The notes below the pieces were generated by a model. That model made no database searches. It had not been told where the DNA came from and saw only the letters and a list, made by a program, of their open reading frames with translations. A stretch of DNA of 35,941 bases from a bacterium c-19 (GTDB taxonomy: Bacteria; Bacillota_I; Bacilli_A; Erysipelotrichales; Erysipelotrichaceae): contig QZED01000018.1 in the NCBI GenBank assembly GCA_009917405.1, positions 1 through 35,941 on the forward strand, read 5' to 3'. Below, one piece after another: positions 6,229-32,764 of this stretch. Within the stretch, counting starts at the first letter, position 1, and each line of letters opens with the position of its first letter. Both the position numbers and the translations under genes were made by a program.

Positions 6229-6257
6229 TTGACTTTTGATAGCGCTTAACGGACAAT
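6229..6257 (+). promoter_or_regulatory. Promoter of the GH13-like gene with an overlapping cre-like site
   Basis: TTGACT (6229-6234) and GACAAT (6252-6257) are 17 bases apart. Between them, TGATAGCGCTTAAC (6237-6250) resembles the CcpA catabolite-responsive element, sharing the AGCGCTT core but with about three mismatches to the consensus. A CcpA complex bound there would block RNA polymerase. The promoter is reasonable; the operator call is tentative. Confidence 0.45.
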
Positions 6258-6283
6258 TAAGGTGTACACAAGGAGGATCGTTT

Positions 6284-8290
6284 ATGATCGACTTCACGCA
6301 AATGATTAAAGCTATTCAGCTTTCTAAAAAACAACACACAATGATTTATAATTATACAATTCCTCAAGCATGGAATACATTTGGCTTTGAACGGGGAAAA
6401 CGGCTGCGAAATCATGAGATGATTGTAGATCCGCATGACTTTTACAGCTTCGCATTAACTAAAATGGCAGAAAGTGAGACAAGCTGTCGAGAACTTAAAA
6501 AGGAAAAGGGAAAGCACGGAAGCTGGATTGAAAAAGAAGTGATTTATGCACTGGATATGCGTACTTTAACAAGCTGGGATCATGATCGTAATGATGCGAT
6601 TGATGACAGCAATTTATACGGATTAAATGACAGCGGCACGTTTTTAAAAGCGATCATATTATTACCACTGTTGAAGCGCAGTGGAATAACTACTGTGATT
6701 CTTCATCAATTATTTGAGTTGGATCAGCCCCGTTTTCCGCATGACTATGCACACCCTTATGCATTAAAACATCCGTTGAGGATCGCATCCGCTTTACAAG
6801 ATCCTTTGTTAAGCGGAATTGATGTCATGGCTCAATTTCAGTTGTTTATGCAGGCGGCACATCATTACGGCTTCCGTGTGATATGTAACAGTTCACCGGC
6901 TCGCTTAGGCAGAGACAATGAGCTTTTGGAGTCGCATCCGGACTGGTTTTACTGGATTAAAAAAGACTGTGAAGCACAATACTGTGCTCCGATCGTAAAG
7001 GGATTGCCGAATAACTGCCTTCCCGGTAAAAATGCCTGCAAGCTTTTGTATCAACAGGATACCACACAAGCGCATTTGGATATGTTTGCGTATGATCCTG
7101 AAACAAGTGATCCGAAGGCTTATCAAGAGTGGCGCAGTCAATCTGACTGTTGTGATTTGGCGGCTATGGAAAAGCATTTCCGCATCACAAGCGCTCCGAT
7201 GTTTTCCGATCAATTAAACACTTCACTCCCGATTCAAAAAGAAACGACATATCTGCGTTTTTACCGTGATCAACCTATTGATCAGGCACCTTATCTTTTA
7301 CAGGATACGCTTCGTCCCGATCTATTTGCGGGCAAACATGCCAATGAACCGCTGTGGGACTTTATCTGTTCTTATACTACTACACTAATAGAGGATTATC
7401 AATTTGACGGTTTATTTATCGATGAGGTTTGGCTATTGCCGCAGAAGCTTTTAAAAGCAGTGATTCAAAATATGCGCAAACAAAAGCCGCAGTGTGCCAT
7501 ATTAGTAAACTGCAATGAGGAACAAGCATTTACAAAGTGGCGCAAGCTCGGTGTAAATGTTATCAGCGGAAACAGTGCATATATGATCCATGATGATCTT
7601 GAATCGTATCGAAGCTTTGCCTACAGCCGATTAAATGCGGAATCAACCTTACTGGCTGCCGGTGAATTCATTGATACTCCGAGAGTCCCACAATATCAGG
7701 GTGGTGAAGCTATGGCAAAAACATTGATGTTTATGAATTTATTTTTGCCGCACTCCATTCCTTATTATACTTCTGGTCAGCTTTCGTTAGCGATTCAACC
7801 GCAGTTTTTATCCCCTTATGCAGATCCCGCTTATCAAAATGCTTTGCCGACAAATGATATACGTTGTCATAAACAAGCTTTTATTGATAAAAGCTATTAT
7901 ACTTATACAAGAGGTGATTATCATATTTTAATCAATCAGATGGAGCATTTCAATAAACTGCGCAGACAGTATCTTCCGGCGATGATGAATGATGAGACCT
8001 CAATACCCGTTTGGTTTGATAAGCCCAATGATCCCGGTATCGGATTTACTTATACATTAGCGGATCGCGCCTTGCTTGTCGTCTGTAACATTGATGTCAA
8101 AAATGCACAGACTTTGACAATCCATACGGAAAATATGTTGTGGGAACTGCCTTTTATCTGGAAACATATCTACCAAATATATTCCAGTCATGACCCGTAT
8201 ACACATGATATTGAATTAAACGCATTCCAAAACATTCCGCTGTATTTTGAAGCGGGTGAGGTCAAGATTTTAGAAATACGTGAAGAATGA
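6284..8290 (+). CDS. GH13-like (alpha-amylase superfamily) protein with altered catalytic motifs
   Basis: The start at 6284 follows AGGAGGA by 7 bases; an in-frame upstream ATA at 6236 lacks this signal. The resulting 668-residue protein resembles GH13 enzymes, especially GlgE-like ones. It has a strand-2 block GFRVICNSSPAR followed by ESHPDWFYW, a nucleophile-type strand FDGLFIDEVW (D380), a strand-7 block EFIDTPR (461-467) and a C-terminal beta-sandwich with LLVVCNID and a closing YFEAGEVKILEI. Two canonical features are missing. The His before the strand-7 Asp is Ile463, and no clean acid/base Glu motif is seen at strand 5, where NCNEEQ (409-414) occupies the place. There is no signal peptide, so it is cytosolic. 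It is a single-gene unit with a possible cre-like promoter and a strong terminator. Substrate and even activity are uncertain. Confidence 0.7.
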   Translation: MIDFTQMIKAIQLSKKQHTMIYNYTIPQAWNTFGFERGKRLRNHEMIVDPHDFYSFALTKMAESETSCRELKKEKGKHGSWIEKEVIYALDMRTLTSWDHDRNDAIDDSNLYGLNDSGTFLKAIILLPLLKRSGITTVILHQLFELDQPRFPHDYAHPYALKHPLRIASALQDPLLSGIDVMAQFQLFMQAAHHYGFRVICNSSPARLGRDNELLESHPDWFYWIKKDCEAQYCAPIVKGLPNNCLPGKNACKLLYQQDTTQAHLDMFAYDPETSDPKAYQEWRSQSDCCDLAAMEKHFRITSAPMFSDQLNTSLPIQKETTYLRFYRDQPIDQAPYLLQDTLRPDLFAGKHANEPLWDFICSYTTTLIEDYQFDGLFIDEVWLLPQKLLKAVIQNMRKQKPQCAILVNCNEEQAFTKWRKLGVNVISGNSAYMIHDDLESYRSFAYSRLNAESTLLAAGEFIDTPRVPQYQGGEAMAKTLMFMNLFLPHSIPYYTSGQLSLAIQPQFLSPYADPAYQNALPTNDIRCHKQAFIDKSYYTYTRGDYHILINQMEHFNKLRRQYLPAMMNDETSIPVWFDKPNDPGIGFTYTLADRALLVVCNIDVKNAQTLTIHTENMLWELPFIWKHIYQIYSSHDPYTHDIELNAFQNIPLYFEAGEVKILEIREE

Positions 8291-12104: not shown

Positions 12105-14462
12105 CTATTCACGCTTCAGCTTCCACCATGCAAGTAAGCTGAAACCGCTGCATACGCTAATCAAAAGATACAATGTGTAAGGTACTTCAACTCCTGTCAT
12201 CGGTGAATTATTTCCCTCATGTTGATCTGTTTTGATTTGTGTATTGCCGTTATTTTTATCGACATCATTATTCAACGGCGGAATAGTATCTTCCGGATTT
12301 ATATAATTAGGATCTTTTTCATGACATTTGATGCATTCTCCGTTGACATATTCATGACCTGTTTTCGCTATAACTGTTCCTTTACGAACGATTTCATTAC
12401 AGTGTACACAGAGATAATCACCTGTATAGCCTGCTTCCGTACAGGACGCTTCCTTCGCATTGATCAGCTTAAGTTCCGTATGTCCGCTTGCTTCTAAAAG
12501 CGTTTCCTTTAATGTAATTTCAATCGTCAAAGCCTCATCCGCATAATATTTGCCGCAGCTTTCACAATACCAATATGCAATATGTCCCTGCCCTGTACAA
12601 GTAGGCTCCTTTGCCTTGATTTCACTTATTGTATGTCCCGTTTTCTCTAACAGCACATCGTCTTTATTAATCTTTATCGTAAGAGCCTCATCCGCAAAAT
12701 ATTCATCACAAGCTTCACAATGCCAATATGCAATATGTCCCGCTTCGCTGCAAGTAGGCTCCTTTGCCCTGATTTCACTTATTGTATGTCCCGTTTTCTC
12801 TAACAGCACATCGCCTTTATTAATCTTTATCGTAAGAGCCTCATCCGCAAAATATTCATCACAAGCTTCACAATGCCAATATGCAATATGTCCCGCTTCG
12901 CTGCAAGTAGGCTCCTTTGCCTTAACTTCACTTACAGTATGTGCCGTTTTTTCCAACAGCACATCGTCTTTGTTGAGCTTTATCGTAAGAGCTTCATCCG
13001 CAAAATATTCATCACAAGTTTCACAGTGCCAATATGCAATATGTCCCGCTTCGCTGCAAGTAGGCTCCTTTGCCTTAACTTCACTTACAGTATGTGCCGT
13101 TTTTTCCAACAGCACATCGTCTTTGTTGAGCTTTATCGTAAGAGCTTCATCCGCAAAATATTCATCACAAGTTTCACAGTGCCAATGATCGATATTGCCG
13201 GTTTCAATACAGCTCGCATCCTTTGCCTCAATATGCACCGCATGATGTCCGGATGCCGGAATAATCGTATCGGCTTCTGTTATTTCCTTGCTCAACAACA
13301 AATCTGCATAATATTTCAAATTGCTGAGCCAATGCTCTATGCGGCCTGCCTCAAGACATGTCGGCTCAATCCTTGTATAATGAACGGCAATACCCGCTGC
13401 ACTGTCCTTTGCGTTGTTACTGCCCTTAAAGTTTCCTGTCACTAAATTATCGCTTAAGTCCGGTGTTGTGCCGCCTGTTGCTCGTGATAAACCGTACATA
13501 TATCCCGCTGTCACACTCTTTATAATATTTTCAGGTATAATGAATTCAATATCACTGACTGTTGATGAACTGATATGACCCGTTTCGGAATATGAATTAA
13601 ATACTCCGACTAAGCCGCCCAGTCCCATCGAAGATTTTGTAAGCAGTGCGTAACCAGTGCTCGCATTCGTCTCAATGATAACATTATTTACATTGCAGTT
13701 TTCGATATTATTGCTTAAAAATGTGGCACCGATCAATCCACCGATTTTTCTAGTACCGGTTATTTTCAGATTCGCAACGCTACAATCAGAAATCAGATTA
13801 TTTCCCTCTCCTCTTAAGCCGACCAAGCCGCCGATATTATCACCTTCACTATCGGCTTTAACGTACAAACCGTTCACGCTGCTTCCCTCATTACCCTGCA
13901 CATGAGAGTTTGTGATCATTGAATAATGATCGCCTGCTAAGCCTCCGACCATAAACGTACCGGTAATCGTAATATCTCCGATCACATTACAATTCATCGT
14001 CTTGGTAACCATATACCCCCCTAATGCCCCTACTGTATGATTTGCCCGTATATCCACATTTTCCAGTGTTAAATCCGCAATTACGGCTTCTGGCGCACCT
14101 TGCGCATTACCGAAAAATCCTGCTTCATTCAGATCCTCATTCGTTATTTTAAGGTTCTTCACTGTATTTTGATTTCCCTGAAAAGAACCGGCGAACGGAT
14201 GTTCCTTACTTCCGATCGGGATCCATTCTTCATTGTTTAAATCGATGTCTGCCGTTAATGAAACAGTTTTCTTTGAAAAACTTTTTCCGCTGTTCACCAT
14301 ATCACGAAAAGCAATCAGTTCTTCTTTATCGGAAATCGTAAATTCTGTCGCTGAATCATAATCAAATCCCCAATTTGTTGTGTCAGCCTTTACAATTGCC
14401 GATAACGGCAGTGTAGAAAAAATGACAGCCAGCGAAACCACAATTCTTATAAGTTTTTTCAT
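12105..14462 (-). CDS. Cell-surface protein with GLUG repeats, Cys-containing tandem repeats and a sorting signal
   Basis: A 785-residue secreted protein. A signal peptide (MKKLIRIVVSLAVIFSTLPL, cleavage probably after VKA) is followed by a beta-rich region (about 30-350) carrying GLUG-type motifs such as IGGLVG, VGGLAG and IGGLIG, seen in M26-type peptidase N-domains and adhesins. Residues about 400-650 hold repeats of 51 residues with PTCSEAGHIAYWHCE-x-CDEYFADEALTIK; the paired cysteines may bind zinc or form disulfides. The C-terminus is NSPMTG, a hydrophobic segment and KLKRE, a sortase-type sorting signal in which SPMTG replaces the usual LPxTG. It has its own promoter and ribosome-binding site CAGGAGG. 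It probably acts in adhesion; the ligand is unknown. Confidence 0.85.
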   Translation of the reverse strand: MKKLIRIVVSLAVIFSTLPLSAIVKADTTNWGFDYDSATEFTISDKEELIAFRDMVNSGKSFSKKTVSLTADIDLNNEEWIPIGSKEHPFAGSFQGNQNTVKNLKITNEDLNEAGFFGNAQGAPEAVIADLTLENVDIRANHTVGALGGYMVTKTMNCNVIGDITITGTFMVGGLAGDHYSMITNSHVQGNEGSSVNGLYVKADSEGDNIGGLVGLRGEGNNLISDCSVANLKITGTRKIGGLIGATFLSNNIENCNVNNVIIETNASTGYALLTKSSMGLGGLVGVFNSYSETGHISSSTVSDIEFIIPENIIKSVTAGYMYGLSRATGGTTPDLSDNLVTGNFKGSNNAKDSAAGIAVHYTRIEPTCLEAGRIEHWLSNLKYYADLLLSKEITEADTIIPASGHHAVHIEAKDASCIETGNIDHWHCETCDEYFADEALTIKLNKDDVLLEKTAHTVSEVKAKEPTCSEAGHIAYWHCETCDEYFADEALTIKLNKDDVLLEKTAHTVSEVKAKEPTCSEAGHIAYWHCEACDEYFADEALTIKINKGDVLLEKTGHTISEIRAKEPTCSEAGHIAYWHCEACDEYFADEALTIKINKDDVLLEKTGHTISEIKAKEPTCTGQGHIAYWYCESCGKYYADEALTIEITLKETLLEASGHTELKLINAKEASCTEAGYTGDYLCVHCNEIVRKGTVIAKTGHEYVNGECIKCHEKDPNYINPEDTIPPLNNDVDKNNGNTQIKTDQHEGNNSPMTGVEVPYTLYLLISVCSGFSLLAWWKLKRE
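12601..13212. repeat. Four tandem 153-bp coding repeats
   Basis: The block beginning gtaggctcctttgcc recurs at 12601, 12754, 12907 and 13060, an exact 153-base (51-codon) period. The first two units differ at only about two bases, and the last two are identical over about 125 bases, while the two pairs differ more from each other. Diverged copies flank the array on both sides (about 12448-12600 and from 13213). The pattern suggests recent duplication or gene conversion inside a surface-protein gene, so copy number may vary between strains. Confidence 0.95.
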
Positions 14463-28480: not shown

Positions 28481-28615
28481 ATGGTTCATTATCCTGTTGA
28501 GCAACATTAAAAATCACTTTAACAATCTTATTTCATTTTTCACATAATGTTCATACAACAAACAACTGTTTTCCATATGCCGCTGATAAAATAGAGGCAG
28601 AAAAGAGGTGAAGCA

Positions 28616-29398
28616 ATGGCATCTGTTAAAATGGTGTTTCAGCGCTTGGAAAAGAAATATCTTATTAATGAAGCACAAAAAAGCGAACTATTACAAAGGG
28701 CATCTAATTATCTAACCGATGATGTATTTGATGCCGCAACCGTCTGTAATATATATTTTGATACCGATCGGTATGATTTAATTACCACATCGCTTCAAAA
28801 ACCGCCGTATAAAGAGAAACTTCGTTTAAGAAGCTATGGAGTGGCCCATAAAGACAGCACCGTATATCTTGAAATCAAAAAGAAATGCAAAGGCATTGTT
28901 AATAAACGGCGCATTTCATTGAATGAAACAGAAGCGGTATTGCTGCTTCAAACAGGCAAACTGCCTCATCACAACACACAGATTCAAGCTGAAATCGATT
29001 ATTTTATTCAATATTATCAACCGAAGCCGATGGTCTATATCGCTTATGAGCGATCGGCATTGATCGGTAAGAGTGCGCCTGATTTGCGAATTACCTTCGA
29101 TCAAAATATTCGCCGCAGATATGATCATTTGGATTTAACATATGAAACCGACGGAAAGACGGTGCTTGATGATGACAAAATTCTGATGGAGATTAAAGTA
29201 CCCGGCGCCTACCCTTTATGGCTTACCCGTAGTTTATCCGATATGAAACTGTATCCGACTTCTTTTTCTAAATACGGAACAGTATTCCTGCACGATATGG
29301 TAAAAAGTAAAACACCAATAATACAAAAGCAGGATCAATTTATTTCTAATCCCGCGATACAAAAGGAGGAAGCTTTTTCATGTTTACAAGTATATTAA
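28616..29398 (+). CDS. VTC-domain protein (polyphosphate polymerase-like)
   Basis: A 260-residue soluble protein of the VTC family, related to the catalytic tunnel domain of eukaryotic Vtc4, which makes polyphosphate from ATP. Tunnel-type residues are conserved: FQRLEKKYLI near the start, YKEKLRLRSYG, VYLEIKKKCKG, YERSAL, LRITFDQNI, ILMEIKV and SFSKYGTV near the end. Bacterial members almost always sit beside DUF4956, as here. An extended -10 TGATAAAAT (28584-28592) and AGAGGTG serve it as the first gene of the three-gene cassette. Whether it makes polyphosphate or another polymer is inference. Confidence 0.88.
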   Translation: MASVKMVFQRLEKKYLINEAQKSELLQRASNYLTDDVFDAATVCNIYFDTDRYDLITTSLQKPPYKEKLRLRSYGVAHKDSTVYLEIKKKCKGIVNKRRISLNETEAVLLLQTGKLPHHNTQIQAEIDYFIQYYQPKPMVYIAYERSALIGKSAPDLRITFDQNIRRRYDHLDLTYETDGKTVLDDDKILMEIKVPGAYPLWLTRSLSDMKLYPTSFSKYGTVFLHDMVKSKTPIIQKQDQFISNPAIQKEEAFSCLQVY

Positions 29399-30051
29399 GT
29401 GAAGGAACTAATCTAACGATATGGGAAGGCGGTTTATGTACCGGCTGTTCCCTGTTGATCGGTTGCTTGATTGCCTATATCTATGCCTATCAAGGCTGTG
29501 CGACCAAAAATTTCAAAATAACGATTGCGCTGTTGCCGGCACTTGTACAGCTGGTAATTATGATGGTAAACGGCAATTTAGGAACCGGAGTTGCTGTACT
29601 CGGTACCTTTTCACTGGTGCGCTTTCGTTCGGTACCGGGAAGCTCCAAAGAAATTCTGTTTATCTTTTTTGCGATGGCAGTCGGATTGGCAGCCGGAATG
29701 GGGTATTTAAGCTTTGCGCTTTTCACCGCCGTAGTCATCGCATCAGCCTTTATGATATTGTCTCGGCTTTCGTTTTTACAAAGAGTGCAAACTGAAAAAG
29801 ATCTGCGCATTGTCATCCCAGAAGATTTAGATTATACGGAAATATTTGATGATATTTTTGAACGATATACGCAACAGGTCGAAATGATCCGTGTCAAAAC
29901 GATCAATCTTGGCTCTATGTTTGAGGTCTTTTATCAAATTACATTAAAGGAGCCGTCACAGGAAAAAGCGATGATTGATGAAATTCGCTGCCGTAACGGT
30001 AATCTGGCAGTGGTATTAGCGAGAAGGCAGGCGAACAGTGATGAATTATAA
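29380..30051 (+). CDS. DUF4956 membrane protein
   Basis: A 223-residue protein with four to five membrane segments in the first 125 residues (about 19-37, 48-63, 66-82, 92-107, 109-127) and a soluble cytoplasmic C-terminal domain. The conserved family loop GTFSLVRFRSVPGSSKEI follows the third segment. It overlaps the VTC gene by about 19 bases and the next gene by about 14, so all three are translationally coupled. DUF4956 proteins probably form the membrane partner of VTC enzymes, but their activity is not known. The GGAGGAAGC ribosome-binding site lies inside the VTC gene. Confidence 0.88.
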   Translation: MFTSILSEGTNLTIWEGGLCTGCSLLIGCLIAYIYAYQGCATKNFKITIALLPALVQLVIMMVNGNLGTGVAVLGTFSLVRFRSVPGSSKEILFIFFAMAVGLAAGMGYLSFALFTAVVIASAFMILSRLSFLQRVQTEKDLRIVIPEDLDYTEIFDDIFERYTQQVEMIRVKTINLGSMFEVFYQITLKEPSQEKAMIDEIRCRNGNLAVVLARRQANSDEL

Positions 30052-31906
30052 AGCGCGAAGCCGACTTTTACTTTCACTCTTGTGCATGTTATGGTTATGC
30101 GCCTGTGCGCCAAAACAAGCATCTGAAAATAATCGACAGTCAACTGAAAGCACACAAATCAGTTATGAGGAAGATGATTTCTATCTTGATTTTGATCAAG
30201 AAAGCGTTAATGAAATTAATTTAGATCAAAAGCAAGGAGAAGTCACAATCACAAATGCAGGAACCTATATACTGCACGGCAGTCTTCAAGGATCGCTTTC
30301 TATTGATGTCGGTGAACAAGACACGGTAAGGCTCGTTTTGAAAGAGGCTTCAATCACATCAAGCAGCGGATCGGCAATTCGCTGTGACAACGGCAAAAAG
30401 CTGATTATATCATTATATCAGGATACAAAGAATCAGTTGATCGATGCGGTGGATCCTGCGGACAGTGAAGCTGATGCGACAATTTTGGTACAAAACGATC
30501 TGACTGTGAACGGCAGTGGAAGCTTGAGCATTCAAGCAAATATTCAAAATGCGATCAAAGCAAAAGATACCTTAAAGCTAATGGACGGCAATTATCAGAT
30601 ACAAACTGTAGGTAACGGCATCATCGGAAAAGATACGCTCTATATACATGAAGGCAGCTATCAGATTGATGCGTCGGGAGATGCGATTAAAAGCAACTAT
30701 GATAAAGATAATGAAAAAGGTGATATCTTCATTGAAAACGGCAGCTTTGAATTAAAGGCAGCGCAGGACGGGATTCAATCAGCACGCAATTTGACGATTT
30801 ATAACGGCAACTTTCAAATCACAGCGGGAGGCGGGAGCACCAATGCGGTAAAAACGAACGACAACTTTCAGCACGGCGGATTTTCTCAGCGTGAGCAAAC
30901 GGACAGTGAAGAAGAAACGATCAGCACCAAGGGCGTCAAAGCGACAGGCACACTGATCATCAAAGACGGTGTATTCACTTTAAACACATGTGATGATTCC
31001 CTTCATGCCAACGGTGATATAACCCTGACAAACGGCAGTTTCACAATCGCAAGCGGCGATGACGGTATTCACGCGGATGAAACGCTTACGATTGATAACG
31101 GCAGTATTAACATCACAGAGAGCTATGAGGGGCTTGAGGGGGCTGATGTTATTATCAACGGCGGCGATATACAAGTCGTTTCCGATGATGACGGAATCAA
31201 TGCGGCTGGCGGTAGCGATCAAGCTTCTGCCGCAGAGCCCTTCCCTGATCAGTTTAGGCAGGGTGGAGATTATACGGTTCAGATCCACGGCGGAATCGTC
31301 TTAGTTTATGCGAGGGGTGATGGCTTGGACTCTAACGGCACAATCGAAATGGACGGTGGCAGTGTTGTCGTCTTCGGTCCCTCTGACGGAGGAAACGGCG
31401 CCTTAGACTACGAGGAATCATTTAAGATCAACGGCGGTATTCTGATCGCCGCAGGCAATTCGCAAATGGCACAAGCACCGTCATCCGATTCGTCGCAAAA
31501 TGCTATAATGTTTAACATTTCCCAACAAGAAGCGCATACCCTTTTCTATCTGTGTGATGCATCCGGTAATCCGATTATTGCCGCAGCACCAAACCGTACT
31601 TATGATAATATTGTAATCAGCACTCCGAAGCTGACACTTCAAAAGGAATACCAGCTGTACATCGGCGGCAGCGGCACTGAAAATGATGCCGGCTATATGG
31701 ATAGCGGATTCAGCGGCGGCACACTGTTTACAACAATAACACTTACCGATACAATCACTCAGTCCGGACAAGGCGGAATGAACATGCCCGGAAACAGAGA
31801 AAAAGGTAACGGCAGAGGTGATATGCCTCCCGGCGAGATGTTCCCAGGTGAGCGCAAAGAGTTCGATTCACCTGTGGATCAGTCTCGTGAGGAAGCACAA
31901 ATGTAG
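30041..31906 (+). CDS. Cthe_2159-like carbohydrate-binding beta-helix lipoprotein
   Basis: A 621-residue exported protein. The start is the ATG at 30041, or the GTG just before it. A lipoprotein signal (LLLSLLCMLWLCAC) suggests anchoring through the second Cys. The body is a long right-handed parallel beta-helix of repeated blocks such as LTIDNGSINITES, GDDGIHADETLTI, DGLDSNGTIEMDGGSV, typical of the Cthe_2159 (DUF4353) family that binds acidic polysaccharides and calcium. The tail (about 570-621) is low-complexity Gly/Met/Pro-rich, with MPGNREKGNGRGDMPPG. It is the third gene of the VTC-DUF4956 cassette, which suggests a surface polymer-binding role. No CotH gene, often found with these, is present. 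Confidence 0.82.
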   Translation: MNYKARSRLLLSLLCMLWLCACAPKQASENNRQSTESTQISYEEDDFYLDFDQESVNEINLDQKQGEVTITNAGTYILHGSLQGSLSIDVGEQDTVRLVLKEASITSSSGSAIRCDNGKKLIISLYQDTKNQLIDAVDPADSEADATILVQNDLTVNGSGSLSIQANIQNAIKAKDTLKLMDGNYQIQTVGNGIIGKDTLYIHEGSYQIDASGDAIKSNYDKDNEKGDIFIENGSFELKAAQDGIQSARNLTIYNGNFQITAGGGSTNAVKTNDNFQHGGFSQREQTDSEEETISTKGVKATGTLIIKDGVFTLNTCDDSLHANGDITLTNGSFTIASGDDGIHADETLTIDNGSINITESYEGLEGADVIINGGDIQVVSDDDGINAAGGSDQASAAEPFPDQFRQGGDYTVQIHGGIVLVYARGDGLDSNGTIEMDGGSVVVFGPSDGGNGALDYEESFKINGGILIAAGNSQMAQAPSSDSSQNAIMFNISQQEAHTLFYLCDASGNPIIAAAPNRTYDNIVISTPKLTLQKEYQLYIGGSGTENDAGYMDSGFSGGTLFTTITLTDTITQSGQGGMNMPGNREKGNGRGDMPPGEMFPGERKEFDSPVDQSREEAQM

Positions 31907-31931
31907 CTGTCATAAGCTACAATTCAATCAG

Positions 31932-31975
31932 GACAGTGTAATTACTCCTATCGTTGCACTGTCTTATTTTTTTAA
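31932..31975 (+). terminator. Terminator after the VTC cassette
   Basis: GACAGTG (31932-31938) pairs with CACTGTC (31957-31963), followed by TTATTTTTTT. It can also act in the opposite direction for the converging gene whose stop is at 31964. Confidence 0.78.
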
Positions 31976-32764
31976 TATTGACAAGGGATGTTGAGAAGCA
32001 TTCTCAATCAATGCAGTCACAGAACCCTCAAAACCTGCATCGACATATTCTTTTATACGTCTTTCCCCACCCGCTTGATACAAACAATCGCAATAAAACA
32101 TTCCTGCAATATCAGTAAATCTTTGCCATAAATCTAATTTATCCAACATGTAAAGAATTTGTTCACGGAATTGTTTCTCCTTGATTTCAAACGCTTTATT
32201 CAATGTATAAAAAGCGTCCTTTTTACGATGGACATATCGTGCTTCCTTTAATCGATATTCCGTAACATTCTCATTCCACGATAAATATTGAATCAGTCCC
32301 TCGCAAAAGAAACGATATTCTAACTGCGGAATATAAGCCATCGGCTTTTTATAAGCATGATTCAAATAGTATCGCAGTAAATGTACATGACAAAGATTAT
32401 GCAAGATATAGCACATCTCCATTACACTGCTTGTATAATCAGCGATATTCAATAAATCAACGACTAAATAATCTGTTCCGTCATGTGTCAGCACCTTTGC
32501 ATCGAAATGCTTACCGCTGCCCACGATCGGAAGCATCACGATTTGATCAATCATAGTGCTGCAATACGGAAATAAGTAAACGATAAGATCATGATTCCAT
32601 AACGGAAACTTTTCGTAACAACACACTTCTTTACAAAGCCGCAGAACCACCTCTTTTCTTGTCGGACTGATCGCTTCCACACCGCAAAACGGCTGATACC
32701 AAGCATCCTTTTTTTGTTCCGACTCTTTCACATAATAATCCACTTCACTCAGTTCAATATACAT
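31964..32764 (-). CDS. Unrecognised protein resembling an inactive gluzincin metallopeptidase
   Basis: A 266-residue soluble protein with no signal peptide. I cannot name a family. Residues 115-162 resemble the zinc site of gluzincin peptidases: a helix reading ILHNLCHVHLLRYY in which HNLCH (H122, H126) takes the place of HExxH, and then CEGLIQYLSW where E155 matches the third ligand of an EGxAxY motif, 29 residues later. The catalytic Glu is Asn123 here, which should abolish ordinary proteolysis; the zinc site may be kept for binding. Its promoter has ATGAAA, 17 bases, then TATAAT, with a perfect inverted repeat in the leader. It converges on the VTC cassette. Function unknown; the peptidase link is a motif-level resemblance. 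Confidence 0.75.
   Translation of the reverse strand: MYIELSEVDYYVKESEQKKDAWYQPFCGVEAISPTRKEVVLRLCKEVCCYEKFPLWNHDLIVYLFPYCSTMIDQIVMLPIVGSGKHFDAKVLTHDGTDYLVVDLLNIADYTSSVMEMCYILHNLCHVHLLRYYLNHAYKKPMAYIPQLEYRFFCEGLIQYLSWNENVTEYRLKEARYVHRKKDAFYTLNKAFEIKEKQFREQILYMLDKLDLWQRFTDIAGMFYCDCLYQAGGERRIKEYVDAGFEGSVTALIENASQHPLSILKK

Follow-up and report, generated by a model that had tools for sequence, protein, structure and literature searches.

The stretch of DNA analysed here, hereafter the window, is 35,941 nucleotides long and forms one entire contig (QZED01000018.1) of the 2.24 Mb, 98% complete genome of the gut Erysipelotrichaceae bacterium c-19 (assembly GCA_009917405.1). Three overlapping genes lie in its last third, and the rest of the contig is mostly ordinary core genome. 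The first gene (28616–29398, forward strand) encodes a VTC-domain protein of 260 aa, predicted to be a polyphosphate polymerase that has the triphosphate-tunnel fold and lies in the cytosol (Pfam PF09359, E=1.6e-39). The second (29380–30051, forward strand) encodes a DUF4956 protein of 223 aa with five predicted membrane helices and a predicted C-terminal cytosolic domain (PF16316, E=1.5e-17, the sole Pfam family matched). The third (30038–31906, forward strand) encodes a Cthe_2159-type beta-helix lipoprotein of 622 aa with the lipobox LCAC (PF14262, E=1.5e-81, match at residues 66–343). The VTC and DUF4956 genes overlap by 19 nt (29380–29398) and the DUF4956 and lipoprotein genes by 14 nt (30038–30051); the GTG start of the lipoprotein at 30038 is directly followed by an ATG at 30041, so that an ATG start is possible and the second overlap is perhaps 11 nt. 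A terminator stem-loop followed by a T run (31930–31965, forward strand; 13-bp stem, fold −15.5 kcal/mol) is common to both convergent genes that meet at this point. The gene facing this predicted operon (31964–32764, reverse strand) encodes a 266-aa protein without a known family and adjoins the operon in the close relatives L076, L077 and L084 as well. Elsewhere in the window, a 684-aa protein (6236–8290, forward strand) has no match in Pfam or PHROGs, and a 785-aa protein (12105–14462, reverse strand) yields only weak zinc-ribbon and phage-family fragments. Among named records, the nearest relative is an uncultured Erysipelotrichaceae bacterium, whose VTC protein is 92% identical. Against the nearest relative (L084), dN/dS is 0.095 for VTC, 0.045 for DUF4956 and 0.159 for the lipoprotein, and each of the three genes is therefore under purifying selection. 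An earlier reading made from the sequence alone had recognised three overlapping genes, which the coordinates, the overlaps and the Pfam matches bear out; the VTC–DUF4956–Cthe_2159 module is real, conserved and functionally constrained.

Upstream of the operon we find the direct repeat TTCACA-TAATG-TTCATA (28539–28555, forward strand), a candidate binding box for an OmpR/PhoB-family regulator with an 11-bp period, and a candidate −10 element, TAAAAT (28587–28592, forward strand), whose position is conserved and which reads TATAAT in L076. A sigma-70 scan of the window returned 11 promoters versus 9.6 expected, that is, chance level, and the sigma-70 and terminator scan was set aside as promoter evidence because its promoters are not separable from chance; the promoter upstream of VTC is supported by conservation instead. 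Thus, of the single promoter and single terminator proposed earlier, the terminator stands, and the promoter is backed by the conserved repeat and −10 candidate and not by the scan. TTCACA is the most enriched hexamer upstream of VTC (26 of 69 upstream regions, compared with 11 among 503 other genes in these loci, p=4e-18), and as a dyad with a spacer of 5 it is found in 28 of the 69 VTC upstream regions versus 5 of the 503 (p=1e-23), with far weaker enrichment for other spacers. TTCACA-N5-TTCACA is carried by promoters of class II of the module (see below), and many genera retain its spacing and approximate position ahead of VTC; the box was first spotted in an alignment of five promoters and tested afterwards, so that those five are not independent. 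The promoters of L062 and L068 carry three copies at 11-bp steps, and that of L117 reads TTAACA-N5-TTAACA. Regulators of the OmpR/PhoB family typically bind repeats with an 11-bp period, and 14 VTC copies have OmpR-family two-component genes next to them. NCBIfam searches placed none of the adjacent response regulators above the cut-off for PhoB or any other equivalog, and the name "Pho box" is therefore unjustified for this repeat. A two-component regulator of the OmpR/PhoB family probably sets the expression of the operon via the 11-bp direct repeat, the box being observed and the regulator predicted from it.

A profile built from 65 VTC homologues matches the solved Vtc4 structures with an E-value of 9.1e-20, and the predicted structure of the VTC protein (pLDDT 90) could be superimposed on Vtc4 (PDB identifier 3g3r) with a Z-score of 18.5 and an rmsd of 3.0 over 218 residues. 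In the alignment, K200, R264, R266, K281, K294, R361 and R373 of Vtc4, which we take to be catalytic residues, correspond to K14, R70, R72, K88, K97, R146 and R158 of the VTC protein, all of which are invariant in the 65 homologues from both classes of the module described below. The yeast VTC complex is inactivated by R264A/R266A/E426N (PMC9911596). E192, K194, S218 and K219 of the VTC protein are invariant or nearly so and lie inside the matched fold range, by which alone they can be compared with the metal ligand E426 and with K458 of Vtc4; the sequence alignment stops short of this region, and a sub-profile alignment to these C-terminal catalytic residues failed. By Pfam, the 260-aa protein consists of a VTC domain only, with neither an SPX nor a Vtc1-type membrane domain. 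We propose that this protein makes polyphosphate, and likely so, since its active site is intact as far as it can be aligned; the VTC enzyme named in the earlier reading is indeed Vtc4-like by profile and by fold. The same reading treated the product of the bacterial enzyme as not yet established, which agrees with the literature found, where activity is predicted only (PMC7112168, PMC12345266) and reports of enzyme activity are lacking for bacterial VTC proteins. Alternatively, the VTC protein could be a CYTH-type triphosphatase or nucleotide enzyme instead of a polymerase; CYTH enzymes share its fold (Z 13–15.5) and tunnel chemistry. We regard this alternative as very improbable, given that the Vtc proteins are the best matches in sequence and in fold (Z about 18 for both Vtc4 and Vtc2/3, against 15.5 for the best other triphosphate-tunnel enzyme) and that the seven aligned Vtc4 residues are kept in every homologue.

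Searches of the genome found no match to PPK1, PPK2 or Ppx/GppA. Given that both PPK1 and PPK2 are missing, VTC is the sole recognised polyphosphate synthase candidate of the genome; a VTC protein that makes no polyphosphate would accord just as well with a genome lacking PPK and Ppx. A replacement of PPK1 by VTC was considered and rejected as a weak link, PPK1 being present in 9 of 29 module-bearing genomes versus 18 of 31 others.

The VTC protein is strictly paired with DUF4956. Both are present in an identical set of 29 among 60 relatives, and in 295 phylum-wide genomes VTC is found in 54, 52 of which have DUF4956, while DUF4956 without VTC is found in none; in the two remaining genomes, one VTC lies at a contig edge and the other is a 66-codon fragment. 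Three of 14 control genomes are positive for VTC and DUF4956 alike (Bacteroides ihuae, Corynebacterium glutamicum and Methanosarcina acetivorans). DUF4956 lies directly downstream of VTC in 103 of 112 copies and overlaps it in 65. DUF4956 is an obligate, co-evolving membrane partner of VTC. The suggestion made from the sequence alone, that DUF4956 couples VTC to the membrane, fits this pairing, an agreement that extends to the coupling and not to the product or its exit from the cell. In L131, L132 and L146, whose branches are also the longest in the VTC tree, the order is reversed, with DUF4956 before VTC. Another arrangement is seen in L107 (6286–8796, reverse strand), where a lipoprotein with metallo-beta-lactamase and lamin-tail domains has a DUF4956 gene on each side; a lamin-tail domain is also present in the large class I CotH protein of L092.

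The DUF4956 model (pLDDT 81) shows five helices and, at the C-terminus, an alpha-beta domain, for which a fold search gave ACT/ferredoxin-like hits only (E >= 2.6e-3), and a sequence search of solved structures found no significant relative. A DUF4956 profile matched the MgtC proteins of related genomes with a probability of 97.2% and an E-value of 4.4e-11 over 204 columns, spanning the membrane core and the C-terminal domain; negative controls for this comparison (shuffled, reversed and seven other membrane families) scored 0.1–0.7. A search of the window's own genome found no match to the MgtC Pfam family PF02308. The loop charges point to an N-out, C-in topology, which would place R81 (96% conserved) and R83 (100%) at the cytosolic end of TM3; both arginines are missing from the MgtC profile, and by their conservation and predicted position they would suit the mouth of a path for a polyanion. 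These profile and fold comparisons mark DUF4956 as a divergent relative of MgtC that has a predicted cytosolic ACT-like domain. The same MgtC/ACT architecture was given for SIR_1592 in a 2025 paper (PMC12345266), which the present analysis confirms and extends. DUF4956 shares the membrane core and the ACT-like C-terminal domain with the MgtC/SapB family, but has a VRFRS motif in place of the MgtC signature and pairs with VTC. MgtC relatives act as regulators, and we know of none that is a channel. Their regulatory action has been described for PhoR and ATP synthase (PMC12345266).

It is possible, though unlikely in our view, that the operon is a regulatory membrane module without export, in which VTC makes or cleaves short polyphosphate inside the cell, the MgtC-like DUF4956 reads a ligand via its ACT-like domain and tunes the ATP/phosphate balance and envelope genes, and the surface protein is merely co-expressed. 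The MgtC homology and ACT-like fold of DUF4956, the OmpR-type box and the adjoining two-component genes would all agree with such a module, as would Streptococcus intermedius, in which the DUF4956 gene affects the amount of Pel and the VTC gene has no reported phenotype (PMC12345266). However, the arginine pair missing from the MgtC profile speaks against it, and a purely internal regulator does not predict the observed tie between the class of surface partner and the classes of VTC and DUF4956, which has lasted over long evolutionary times.

At the 112 VTC copies, the partner is Cthe_2159 in 58, CotH in 28, neither in 26 (some of these loci are ended by a contig edge, and divergent partners are possible) and both in none. 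Partner labels come from iterated profiles, with Pfam applied to part of the genes, and four loci in which a simple ORF caller missed VTC (L071, L099, L113 and L147) are excluded from the counts. Among loci sampled without bias to the window's VTC, the partner is Cthe_2159 in 29, CotH in 28 and neither in 15. The VTC tree splits into class I, with 26 CotH, one Cthe_2159 and one neither, and class II, which includes the window, with 57 Cthe_2159, two CotH and 23 neither (Fisher p=1e-18, related loci being non-independent points). The split remains after removal of long branches, and the DUF4956 tree repeats it with one change and a support of 100, both trees coming from quick searches in which SH-aLRT is the only support measure. 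The genomes G021, G025, G029, G121 and G298 each have one class I and one class II copy. Both alternative partners have a lipobox or membrane-anchor segment at the N-terminus, and most class I CotH proteins start with a membrane segment. A single exception, L145, has a class I VTC beside Cthe_2159, and its genome has two CotH copies. The module has two ancient classes, class I with an exported CotH and class II with an acidic beta-helix lipoprotein. CotH was rejected as an obligatory component, being missing from the window's genome and never sharing a locus with Cthe_2159; the co-occurrence survey shows the two to be alternatives and not co-components.

The CotH version of the module beside pel has already been published, as SIR_1592–1594 in the S. 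intermedius pel locus (PMC12345266) and as the accessory genes cotH-PPP-DUF4956-DUF4832 (PMC7112168). Both resemble the window in combining a polyphosphate-polymerase-domain protein with DUF4956, the MgtC/ACT membrane protein of S. intermedius, but they belong to class I, whereas the window has Cthe_2159 and its genome gave no match to CotH or PelG; a Pel-locus reading of the window operon was rejected on these grounds. Similarly, in C. perfringens NELoc-2 (PMC2879425) VTC adjoins a membrane protein of 222–226 aa, but the arrangement is of the class I type with CotH, and the membrane protein is annotated there as tubulin/FtsZ. PelG is above the cut-off in one of the 29 module-bearing relatives (G031, locus L091, class I beside pel). 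The 2025 paper did not find the three-gene synteny including CotH outside the Pel locus (PMC12345266); that statement is qualified by 28 relatives that have no confident PelG and yet carry the VTC–DUF4956 pair, together with one or the other partner. The module is known yet uncharacterised, widespread and barely studied. The strict VTC–DUF4956 pairing, the non-Pel lipoprotein class and the class II promoter box, of which we found no report in the literature, appear to be new.

The N-terminal half of the window lipoprotein matches the Cthe_2159 structure (PDB identifier 4peu; E=3.8e-27, residues 12–268), but the window protein is twice as long, and its most conserved acidic cluster lies past the matched region. 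Among its relatives, the N-terminus bears either a lipobox or a hydrophobic anchor, and the median net charge is −50. D342, E364, E367, D384, D385, N388, D428, D431, N433 and D457 are conserved in 58 of 58 aligned lipoproteins, the invariant acidic cluster E364, E367, D384, D385, D428, D431 and D457 being outside the Pfam match. From this conservation, the acidic/amide run at 342–457 resembles metal sites or an active centre and not a basic clamp that would grip polyphosphate. As the lipoprotein is strongly acidic, any binding of polyphosphate would need bridging metal ions; the earlier suggestion that it holds the anionic product is weakened by both the charge and the cluster, and would require bridging Ca2+ or else another ligand. 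In L045, L047, L048 and L055 (Oribacterium, Lachnospiraceae), genes for a GT2-GtrA glycosyltransferase and an NAGPA phosphodiester glycosidase lie downstream of the lipoprotein.

A role in decorating envelope glycans is decidedly unlikely. In such a role, an acidic surface polysaccharide would be modified or assembled with phosphate or pyrophosphate from VTC and would be bound or processed by the beta-helix lipoprotein, and CotH would phosphorylate surface targets in class I. The name of the Cthe_2159 domain refers to carbohydrate binding, class I is found beside pel, and several loci have glycosyltransferase and glycosidase genes downstream of the lipoprotein, but 28 of the 29 module-bearing relatives have no confident PelG, and most loci, including that of the window, are without adjoining glycan genes, none of which is conserved across class II.

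The yeast VTC complex (Vtc1/Vtc3/Vtc4; PMC9911596) likewise joins a membrane partner to a polymerase domain of the triphosphate-tunnel type in the cytosol, and this domain shares its aligned catalytic residues with the predicted bacterial polymerase. The window differs in having no SPX domain, in the replacement of the Vtc1-type three-helix domain by the MgtC-like DUF4956 in a separate gene and in the addition of a surface lipoprotein. We tentatively favour, with somewhat less than even confidence, the explanation that the three genes specify a polyphosphate synthase coupled to the membrane, together with a partner that acts at the surface. In the cytosol, the VTC enzyme would convert ATP to polyphosphate in its tunnel, as the intact active site suggests, and VTC and DUF4956, whose pairing is observed, would work as a unit in physical contact. 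R81/R83 at the cytosolic mouth and the ACT-like domain of DUF4956 may either take over the chain or act as a gate on the enzyme, and passage of the chain through the membrane is probable. On the outer side, the beta-helix lipoprotein, which is acidic and probably binds metal, may act on the product or on the matrix receiving it, its place being taken in the sister class I by the exported CotH kinase. Against this explanation stand the acidity of the lipoprotein and the fact that MgtC relatives are regulators and, to our knowledge, not channels. Further, aggregation of S. intermedius is affected by the loss of SIR_1592 and SIR_1594, with no reported effect for the loss of the VTC gene SIR_1593 (PMC12345266).

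A broader and more doubtful hypothesis is that VTC–DUF4956 generally serves bacteria and archaea as a combined synthase and exporter of polyphosphate, with an MgtC-fold protein in place of the membrane channel of eukaryotic Vtc, and that the polyphosphate put outside Gram-positive cells is anchored or processed by a metal-binding lipoprotein or used by a CotH kinase as a phosphate donor where ATP is lacking. If the operon works as we propose, many gut Bacillota would make polyphosphate at the membrane, possibly for the surface, despite having no polyphosphate kinase, and would do so by the route of yeast and protozoan parasites. DUF4956 would gain a function, the MgtC fold would be linked to polyphosphate, and extracellular CotH kinases would have a phosphate source. 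The two classes offer matched natural experiments, in which the enzyme pair is constant and the surface partner differs.
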